NCBI RefSeq assembly: GCF_016902615.1
Contig: NZ_JACJMB010000002.1
Coordinates: forward strand, 62,001-126,000
Direction of reading: 5' to 3'
From: Collinsella tanakaei
GTDB lineage: Bacteria; Actinomycetota; Coriobacteriia; Coriobacteriales; Coriobacteriaceae
Length of the DNA stretch: 64,000 nt
Shown in pieces: positions 25,227 through 28,108 of this stretch. The notes under the pieces were generated by a model. The model saw only the letters and a list, made by a program, of their open reading frames with translations, was not told where the DNA came from and made no database searches. The first letter of the stretch is position 1, and every line of letters begins with the position of its first letter. A program made the position numbers and the translations under genes.

Positions 25227-25254
25227 TTGACTTTCGCTCGCTAAAGCGTAGACT
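25227..25254 (+). promoter_or_regulatory. Promoter of the leader peptide-cstA unit
   Basis: TTGACT (25227-25232), a 16-base spacer and TAGACT (25249-25254) place the transcript start about 60 bases before the leader peptide ATG. Confidence 0.6.
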
Positions 25255-25319
25255 ATGTTTCGCCTTGTAAGGGAACGCGGATATCCGTCCGCGCCACGTA
25301 ACGAAGAAGGTTCATCACG

Positions 25320-25364
25320 ATGAGGAACATCAACCTGCTATCCATTATCAGCGAGATTATCTGA
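25320..25364 (+). CDS. Ile-rich leader peptide MRNINLLSIISEII
   Basis: A 14-codon frame from ATG 25320 to TGA 25362-25364 has the ribosome site GAAGAAGG nine bases upstream. Five of its 14 residues are Ile and two are Leu; the last two sense codons are ATT ATC. It stops two bases before the first stem of a terminator-bearing leader. This is the layout of amino acid attenuators, in which a ribosome stalled at scarce-amino-acid codons changes leader folding. It is too short to be a functional protein. Confidence 0.75.
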   Translation: MRNINLLSIISEII

Positions 25365-25365
25365 T

Positions 25366-25455
25366 ACGGGTTGGTGACACATGCCAGCCCGTGCGATAGC
25401 GGGCGGCTGAAGGCTACGGGGGCCGTCGAGAACATGTCGACGGCCCCCGTTTTTT
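25366..25455 (+). promoter_or_regulatory. Transcription attenuator upstream of the cstA-type gene
   Basis: Segment 1 ACGGGTTGG (25366-25374) pairs with segment 2 CCAGCCCGT (25384-25392) directly after the leader stop. The terminator is a perfect 14-bp stem, ACGGGGGCCGTCGA (25416-25429) with TCGACGGCCCCCGT (25437-25450), and TTTTTT. CCCGT of segment 2 can also pair with ACGGG of the terminator's left arm, giving a possible anti-terminator; a further alternative is pairing of CAGCCCG with CGGGC at 25400. A ribosome held at the final Ile codons would cover segment 1. T-box motifs are absent. Confidence 0.7.
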
Positions 25456-25492
25456 ATTGCATCGGGTGGCCTTCCGGGGGAAAGGATTTGGT

Positions 25493-27340
25493 ATGAACGG
25501 TATCGTCGTAGTGGTGGTGGCGGCAGTCGTGCTGGCTGCCGGCTACCTGGGCTATGGCCGCTGGCTTGCGGCCAAGTGGGGCGTCGACCGCGAGGCCATC
25601 ACGCCCGCACGTCGCATGGAGGACGGCAAGAACTTCTCGCCCGCCTCATGCTTCACCGCCTTCTCGCACCAGTTCAGCTCCATCTGCGGTGCTGGCCCGG
25701 TGACGGGCACGATCGCCGCCATGATGTTCGGCTGGCTGCCGGTGCTTCTGTGGGTGCTCGTGGGCGGCATCTTCTTCGGCGCCGTGCATGACTTCGGCGC
25801 CTTGTACGCCAGCGTGAAGAACAACGGCAAGTCGCTCGCGCAGCTGATCGAGAAGTACATCGGCCGCACCGGTCGTCGTCTGTTCCTGCTCTTCAGCTGG
25901 CTGTTCACCATCATCGTCATCGCTGCCTTCGTCGACATGGTTGCCGGCACGTTCCAGGCGACGTTCGACGCCTCGGGCGCGGTCGATACCGCCGCTTCCT
26001 ATGCCGGCGGCACGGCGGGCACCATCTCCATCCTGTTCACGTTCGTGGCCATCGCCTTCGGCTGGCTGAACCGCCGCTTCCAGCTTTCCGGCGTCCGTGA
26101 GCTCGCGCTCGCCGTCGTGCTGTTCGTCGCCATGTTCGCCGTCGGGATGCAGTTCCCGGTGTACCTGTCCAAGTTCGGCTGGTTTGCCGTTATCGCCGTC
26201 TACCTGCTGTTCGCGGCCGCCATGCCCATCCAGACGCTCAAGCAGCCGCGCGATTATCTCACGAGTATCATGATGATCGTCATGATCGTGTGCGCCGTGC
26301 TCGGCATCTTCGTGCTCGGTGCGAACGGCCAGGCCACGATGACCGCGCCCATGGTCGCCGACATCTCCGCGCTCGCCGCCAAGGGCAGCTACCTGTTCCC
26401 GCTGCTGTTCGTGTCCGTCGCCTGCGGCGCCCTCTCCGGTTTCCACAGCCTCGTGTCCACGAACACCTCCTCGAAGCAGATTGAGAAGGAGTCCGACATG
26501 CTGCCCGTCGGCTACGGCGCCATGGTCGTCGAGTCCTTCGTGGGCGTGCTCGCCATCGTCGTGGCCGCCATCATGTTCTCCGACCTGAACACCGCCGGCA
26601 CCGGCGCTCTCAACAACGGTGTCGCCGCCACCCCGTTCTCCATCTTCTCGCAGGGCATCGCCCGCGGCATGATGGCTTTCGGTATCGACGGCACCCTCGC
26701 GACCGTGTTCATGACCATGTGCGTCTCCGCGCTCGCGCTCACCTCCGTCGACGCCGTCGCGCGCATCGGCCGTCTGTCGTTCCAGGAGTTCTTCGCGCGC
26801 AGCAACGACGCGCTCGAGGATGAGCAGGCGTCCCTCACCGGCGTGGAGAAGGTCGTCACGAACACCTGGGTTGCCACCGTGCTCACGCTTGCGCTCGGCT
26901 TCGCACTCGCCTTCGGCGGCTACAACAACATCTGGCCTCTGTTCGGCGCTTCCAACCAGCTGCTCGGCGGCATGACGATGATCACGCTCGCGGTCTTCTG
27001 CAAGTGCACCGGTCGCCGCGGCTGGATGTTGTACGTGCCCGTGGTATTCCTGCTGTGCTGCACGTTCACTTCGCTCGTGCAGAGCACGATCGGCTGCGTG
27101 AACGCGCTCGCCGCGTCCGGTGCGGCTGTCATCGCCACGTCCGGTCTGCAGCTCGTGTTCGCCATCTTGCTGATGGTCCTCGGTGTGATCGTGGCCTATA
27201 ACTGCCTGAAGGAGTTCTTCACCAAGGAGGCCGGCTCGATGCCCGACGAGGAGCCCGAGTGGACGGAGATGGGTCGCGAGCACGTGCGCGAGCAGGCCGC
27301 CGCATCCGCTCAGGACGCCGGCAGCGAGAACGTCGCGTAG
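25493..27340 (+). CDS. cstA: CstA-family carbon starvation / peptide or pyruvate transporter
   Basis: ATG 25493 (MNGIVVVVVAAVVLA) follows GGGGGAAAGGA; an in-frame ATG at 25457 sits inside the leader after the terminator. The 615-residue protein has about 16 membrane segments and the CstA signatures FSPASCFTAFSHQFSSICGAGPVTG near residue 45 and CGALSGFHSLVSTNTSSKQI near residue 310. It is shorter than E. coli CstA (about 700 residues). Known members import peptides or pyruvate. An Ile-rich attenuator precedes it, which suggests demand-controlled uptake of peptides as an amino acid source. Confidence 0.92.
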   Translation: MNGIVVVVVAAVVLAAGYLGYGRWLAAKWGVDREAITPARRMEDGKNFSPASCFTAFSHQFSSICGAGPVTGTIAAMMFGWLPVLLWVLVGGIFFGAVHDFGALYASVKNNGKSLAQLIEKYIGRTGRRLFLLFSWLFTIIVIAAFVDMVAGTFQATFDASGAVDTAASYAGGTAGTISILFTFVAIAFGWLNRRFQLSGVRELALAVVLFVAMFAVGMQFPVYLSKFGWFAVIAVYLLFAAAMPIQTLKQPRDYLTSIMMIVMIVCAVLGIFVLGANGQATMTAPMVADISALAAKGSYLFPLLFVSVACGALSGFHSLVSTNTSSKQIEKESDMLPVGYGAMVVESFVGVLAIVVAAIMFSDLNTAGTGALNNGVAATPFSIFSQGIARGMMAFGIDGTLATVFMTMCVSALALTSVDAVARIGRLSFQEFFARSNDALEDEQASLTGVEKVVTNTWVATVLTLALGFALAFGGYNNIWPLFGASNQLLGGMTMITLAVFCKCTGRRGWMLYVPVVFLLCCTFTSLVQSTIGCVNALAASGAAVIATSGLQLVFAILLMVLGVIVAYNCLKEFFTKEAGSMPDEEPEWTEMGREHVREQAAASAQDAGSENVA

Positions 27341-27685: not shown

Positions 27686-28108
27686 CTACACGAAGCGGCA
27701 GACGTGGTCCACGGCGATGTCCGAGAAGCCGTAGGCCTCGGCCTTGGTCAGCTTGCCGTTGCAGATGGCCACGATCTCGTCGAGCATCGCCGCGCCCATC
27801 TCGGCTGCGGTCTGCTCACCGCGCACGATGGGGGAGAGATCGTAGTCCATGTTGTCCTCCATGTGCTGATAGGTGCGCTCGTTGGCCGTGACCTTCATGA
27901 CCGGCGCGATGGCGTTGCCGGTGGGGGCGCCGCGTCCGGTGGTGAAGATGACCAGCTGGCAGCCGCCTGCCACCATGGAGGTGACCGACGAGATGTCGTA
28001 GCCGGCGGTGTCCATCACGAGCGCGCCGTGCTCGGTGGGGCGCTCGGCCTGCTCGAGCACCTCGCGGATGGGACGCGTGCCACCCTTGCGGATGCAGCCC
28101 AAGCAAGT
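27686..28108 (-). pseudogene. C-terminal remnant of a UxaA/GarD-family sugar-acid dehydratase
   Basis: The frame reads GCIRKGGTRPIREVLEQAE, then GGCQLVIFTTGRGAPTGN, and ends near SDIAVDHVCRFV. These match the C-terminal part of altronate/galactarate dehydratases, which run to about 390-520 residues; only ~135 residues are left. Upstream the frame meets a stop (28111-28109) within three codons of the conserved start of the remnant, and only a TTG could serve as initiator. The N-terminal and catalytic portions are missing, so this is a deletion relic. The join lies near 28108 and unrelated sequence leading to the next gene follows. Confidence 0.8.

Follow-up and report, generated by a model that had tools for sequence, protein, structure and literature searches.

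A conserved isoleucine-codon leader, probably a ribosome-mediated attenuator, upstream of a CstA-family transporter gene in Coriobacteriia

The his operon attenuator of Enterobacteria is a six-segment leader (A-F) in which an alternating chain of hairpins is set by the position of the ribosome. Rfam has attenuator families for the amino acids His, Leu, Thr and Trp, whose targets are mostly biosynthetic (PMC3766115). In Actinobacteria leader-peptide attenuators are on record for trp, ilvB, trpS and leuS (PMC1262725), and codon changes in a Streptomyces ilvB-type leader were without effect (PMC1262725). T-box control of transporters is also known, including isoleucine (Ile) and branched-chain carriers (PMC2494555), and a doubtful T-box has been noted upstream of cstA1 in Bacillus methanolicus (PMC4342826). 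For E. coli CstA, both peptides and pyruvate have been reported as substrates (PMC5847655, PMC7730263). In the open-licence literature we found no leader-peptide attenuator described for Coriobacteriia or upstream of cstA.

Here we describe a leader upstream of a cstA-family gene in a 64,000-nucleotide stretch of Collinsella tanakaei DNA (the window; contig NZ_JACJMB010000002.1, positions 62,001 to 126,000). Its parts, conservation, compensatory changes and behaviour under ribosome masking were computed. We consider it very probable that the leader senses charged tRNA-Ile and controls the CstA-family transporter by ribosome-mediated transcription attenuation.

Layout of the leader and its alternative folds

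The unit comprises the following parts, in window coordinates:

25227-25254, +, promoter-like site TTGACT-16 nt-TAGACT, 9 of 12 matches, recurring in relatives
25307-25311, +, GAAGG, likely ribosome binding site of the leader ORF, 9 nt 5' of the ATG at 25320
25320-25364, +, leader peptide ORF MRNINLLSIISEII, stop codon at 25362-25364
25331-25342, +, segment 0, inside the leader codons, able to pair with segment 1 (CAACC:GGTTG and TATC:GATA in the MFE fold)
25366-25374, +, segment 1 ACGGGTTGG, directly 3' of the leader stop, pairing with segment 2 with compensatory changes
25383-25392, +, segment 2 GCCAGCCCGT, partner of segment 1 or of segment 3
25400-25408, +, segment 3 CGGGCGGCT, partner of segment 2 (OFF) or of the terminator 5' arm (ON)
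25416-25429, +, segment 4, terminator 5' arm, of which GGCCGTC (25421-25427) pairs with GGCGGCT (25402-25408) as the antiterminator
25437-25455, +, segment 5, terminator 3' arm and T-run
25493-27340, +, cstA-family transporter gene, 615 aa (PF02554, E 9e-139)

The promoter-like site, the Ile-rich ORF with its ribosome site, the first stem, the terminator and the CstA gene all lie where a sequence-only reading had placed them. The peptide MRNINLLSIISEII has five Ile (codons at 25329, 25344, 25347, 25356 and 25359) and two Leu, and comparable purine-rich sites precede the leader ORFs of relatives. The terminator is a perfect 14-bp stem, ACGGGGGCCGTCGA/TCGACGGCCCCCGT (25416-25450), followed by the T-run (25416-25455 as a whole). 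The fold of the leader RNA is more stable than those of all 200 dinucleotide shuffles (z -4.65). The promoter spacer of most relatives keeps CTAAAG (TTGAC..GCTAAAGCGTAGACT) at the same place as in 25227-25254, and a related ACTAAAGTG is found 5' of ilvD in the same genome as the window (L130); the conserved spacer may be an operator or a promoter feature of the lineage. A neighbouring frame (27686-28102, -) matches only the C-terminal part of a D-galactarate/altronate dehydratase (profile positions 106-236 of 242) and could be a fragment.

The antiterminator and terminator folds are mutually exclusive, and both carry compensatory changes. In the ON fold segment 1 pairs with 2 and segment 3 with 4 (GGCGGCT, 25402-25408, with GGCCGTC, 25421-25427); in the OFF fold segment 2 pairs with 3 (GCC-A-GCCCG, 25383-25391, with CGGGCGGC, 25400-25407) and the terminator forms from 4 and 5. 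Covariation was assessed in 36 leaders against 500 shuffles. For the ON fold 92% of cells were paired, with 30 double-change cells against 8.3 in shuffles, and for the OFF fold 89% were paired, with 66 double-change cells against 22; in neither case did any of the 500 shuffles reach the observed value, and shifting the partner by one to three columns destroyed both signals. The wiring is of the his type, with an extra 2:3 pairing between the 1:2 hairpin and the antiterminator. In the sequence-only reading stem 2 could pair with stem 1 or partly with an arm of the terminator. The first pairing holds; the terminator arm receives 0.0 expected pairs on average, and the other partner of stem 2 is the segment at 25400-25407, itself the partner of the terminator arm. 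A chain of 1:2, 2:3 and 3:terminator arm, or the terminator, replaces the earlier four-segment wiring.

Further support for three of these pairings is provided by comparing a leader's own strands with strands swapped between species, which gave z of -11.2 for 1:2, -7.6 for 2:3 and -17.4 for 4:5. In cstA leaders the own 3:4 partners were not favoured; there the two strands hardly vary, so the test is uninformative. With the leaders of other genes (see below) added, 3:4 shows compensatory changes from G-C to A-U in six and from C-G to U-A in two, and in these leaders a change from GGGCGGC to GGGCAGC in segment 3 is coupled to a change from GCCGT to GCTGT in segment 4. Pairing of the leader codons with segment 1 (0:1) gave a weak signal (z -2.8), and 15 of 52 leaders beat 90% of their synonymous recodings.

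A compact conserved RNA without a known family might instead be a metabolite-binding riboswitch or a small RNA. When the leader was compared with Rfam, no attenuator family was matched and the hits were sub-threshold chance matches such as McaS, none above its gathering score; the T-box covariance model gave no match either. We regard a riboswitch or small RNA as very improbable, since the pairing chain accounts for the conservation outside the ORF, and the ORF itself keeps its frame, start, stop and Ile codons.

Ribosome position and the codons of the leader peptide

Folding the leader with and without a masked ribosome, a check proposed in the sequence-only reading, showed that the fold depends on ribosome position. 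The transcript was cut in the terminator loop and the ribosome footprint was masked in 52 leaders with eight footprint sizes, in a thermodynamic, not kinetic, model. The antiterminator formed in 62-67% of the 52 leaders with the ribosome at the first Ile, in 2-4% with the ribosome at the stop codon and in 12% with none, and its dependence on the stall was stable across the eight footprints. In the window leader a ribosome stalled at 25344 gives 7.0 expected pairs for 3:4, one at the stop codon gives 1.1, and the ribosome-free RNA gives 4.8. About one third of leaders gave no clear antiterminator under the mask. Overall, ribosome position selects the fold in this model. A stall at the last Ile pair near the stop (including position -2) already favours the OFF fold, and given this a graded behaviour of the switch is possible.

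On this model, cstA should be switched on when Ile is short and off when it is sufficient. When Ile-tRNA is short, the ribosome would stall at the first Ile codons (25344-25349), leaving segment 1 free to pair with 2, and segment 3 would pair with the terminator 5' arm; with that arm sequestered, RNA polymerase would continue into cstA (ON). When Ile is ample, the ribosome would reach the stop codon and cover segment 1, so that 2:3 would pair, the terminator would form and transcription would end (OFF). In the absence of translation, several leaders would pair their codons with segment 1, likewise ending OFF. We infer that termination does occur at this site, that it responds to Ile in this direction, and that CstA would help to restore Ile or a precursor of it. 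The proposal of an Ile-codon attenuator before cstA is thus backed by conservation, compensatory changes and masking.

The peptides themselves are diverse (for example MRACPQLSIIRQII, MFTHQLNIISVVII, MHAYLLISGEIIS, MGVSTLAEVIIII and MFVAAALILSNLIIC). The sequence-only reading had made its attenuation model depend on the retention of Ile codons in orthologous leaders, and all 46 distinct cstA leader peptides have at least two (mean 3.9). Ile makes up 31% of leader residues, compared with 4.7% in six window genes. Its most constant codon is at position -2 from the stop, in 49 of 52 leaders. Codon use is 143 ATT to 66 ATC in leaders and 9 ATT to 93 ATC, with 1 ATA, in the window genes. The preference for ATT would suit a sensor role; alternatively, it could keep the ORF poorly structured.

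These data also bear on whether the leader responds to impaired translation in general (a slow start, antibiotics, or a lack of Leu or Val as well), with any stalled ribosome leading to ON. Such a sensor would fit the finding that stalls at most early codons also give the antiterminator under the mask, as well as the presence of Leu in 46 of 46 cstA leader peptides and the Leu-rich leaders of one genus (g58 in family f2). However, Ile is the one residue that no leader lacks (46 cstA and 15 other-gene distinct peptides, minimum two), at fixed places near the stop and mostly as ATT, which is rare in the genes examined. The leaders of other genes keep Ile, whereas Leu is missing from 4 of those 15 and most are without Val. 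We therefore think a general sensor distinctly unlikely and favour the sensing of charged tRNA-Ile.

Distribution, other targets and the transporter

The search for cstA took in relatives and 395 genomes of the order, and 105 cstA upstream regions were read. Families and genera are given as numbers; judged from named protein matches, f1 comprises Collinsella, Enorma and allies, f5 resembles Atopobiaceae and f2 resembles Eggerthellaceae. An Ile-rich ORF, a hairpin, a GGGCGGCT-like segment and a terminator precede cstA in 63 of the 105 regions. In the order sample, the Ile-rich frame and terminator that the sequence-only reading had proposed to look for in related genomes were present in all 62 cstA-bearing genomes of f1, the window's own family, and the element was not found in the three f1 genomes without cstA. 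It also precedes cstA in f5 genera g5, g46, g47 and g48, in one g13 genome and in f2 genus g58. No leader was found before cstA in most genomes of g13 (Olsenella/Thermophilibacter-type), g33, g40, g44, g45 and g53. The cstA leader is a real and strongly conserved observation.

Terminator-like sites alone are frequent (2.2 expected per shuffled region), as they would be if the region held an ordinary terminator and unrelated hairpins after upstream genes, with a short ORF by chance. Such a coincidence is extremely improbable: the complete unit accompanies cstA in one genus after another, it is also found 5' of unrelated genes, where the peptide follows the same logic, it shows compensatory changes, and it has its own conserved promoter-like site. 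We retain the attenuator. Among g13 cstA regions without the leader (L031, L040, L045, L056) there are other conserved elements, such as GAACGG..GTTTC-like repeats and a GTTGCGCGCGCAAC palindrome, possibly a regulator site. In-frame TAG codons in Olsenella-type cstA proved to be a natural stop near the C-terminus in the two genomes checked.

With a covariance model built on the leader we searched the order and a phylum-wide sample of 396 genomes; in the latter all matches at E <= 1e-4 fall inside the order. Strong matches away from cstA lie mainly 5' of an MFS carrier, in about 13 genomes of f2 and f5, whose best model is TIGR00883 (metabolite:H+ symporter, MHS-type; 394 bits, under the 443 cut-off). 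In G021 the leader also precedes a PanE/ApbA-like reductase, and it stands before an HpaH/MhpD-like hydratase both there and in G097 (L109, L116 and L117 for the reductase and hydratase loci). Several of these leaders likewise show a stall-dependent antiterminator in the masking model. The MFS carrier was not found in five f1 genomes tested, and in no genome did we see both carriers preceded by the switch. The switch appears to track function rather than gene family. In L117 a reductase gene follows the hydratase gene. In G124, about 4 kb 5' of its cstA (L114), a leader precedes a hydratase gene that has in-frame TAG codons and a lost frame; it looks like a pseudogene with an intact attenuator.

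The genome of the window encodes ilvC and ilvD close together, with frames between them that by eye resemble ilvB and ilvN, and a BrnQ-family carrier. The idea that the switch fits an organism living on peptides finds no support in this gene content, and ilvC and ilvD speak against a peptide-living auxotroph. The element is present in genomes with ilvC and is also kept in C. aerofaciens-type genomes, which have neither ilvC nor an ilvD above the cut-off. A general rule that CstA brings pyruvate for Ile synthesis is therefore unlikely; presence in ilvC-less genomes does not favour peptides over 2-oxo acids. Directly 5' of ilvD in the window's genome is a weak T-box-like match (25.9 bits, gathering 93; L130:2387-2488), and a weak match of this kind occupies the same place in two relatives (L131:3968-4068, L132:3676-3783), so Ile synthesis and cstA may answer related signals via different RNAs. 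A TPP riboswitch match near threshold (51.1 bits, gathering 54.3; L132:3207-3332, -) adjoins the ilv region of G202.

The nearest named protein matches of the window CstA are those of C. ihumii (94%) and C. tanakaei (92-93%). It is 28% identical to E. coli CstA over 595 positions and 34% to BtsT over 382, and is shorter (615 aa versus 701 and 716). It belongs to the wider Pfam family PF02554 and falls far below the cut-off of the NCBIfam pyruvate-symporter (CstA equivalog) model (182.5 bits versus 1188). No YbdD/YjiX partner was found in the window's genome, and no PDB relative by sequence. We link CstA to Ile supply because of the Ile codons of the leader. A wider reading, which we offer tentatively and consider rather unlikely, is a small Ile-rescue regulon in Coriobacteriia, in which CstA or the MHS-type MFS carrier, sometimes with the PanE-like reductase and the HpaH/MhpD-like hydratase, would supply Ile precursors by importing and converting branched-chain 2-oxo or hydroxy acids, with CstA a carrier of 2-oxo acids, not of peptides or plain pyruvate. 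Where the substrate of the CstA family is disputed between peptides and pyruvate, the switch gives an independent clue to a role in Ile supply here. Some genomes without a leader-controlled cstA have this switch on an unrelated carrier. The two carriers, from common gut bacteria, may be functional analogues, which can be tested, and the shared switch hints at the strategy of these bacteria under isoleucine shortage.

Comparison with known attenuators

T-box leaders resemble the cstA leader in sensing aminoacylation and controlling uptake genes, but they work by direct binding of uncharged tRNA and do not require a leader ORF. The ilvBNC leader peptides of Actinobacteria (PMC1262725, PMC10272879) belong to the same phylum and likewise combine a short Ile/Val/Leu-rich ORF with a terminator; they precede biosynthesis genes and have runs of Val and Leu, whereas the cstA-type leaders are Ile-centred and have mainly transporter targets. 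With the his attenuator the cstA leader shares an ORF with control codons and a hairpin chain in which ribosome position decides between antiterminator and terminator, and it differs in having Ile instead of His codons, a transporter as its target and Coriobacteriia as its lineage. The mechanism is already known in kind; the targets, the lineage and the swap between unrelated carriers are new.
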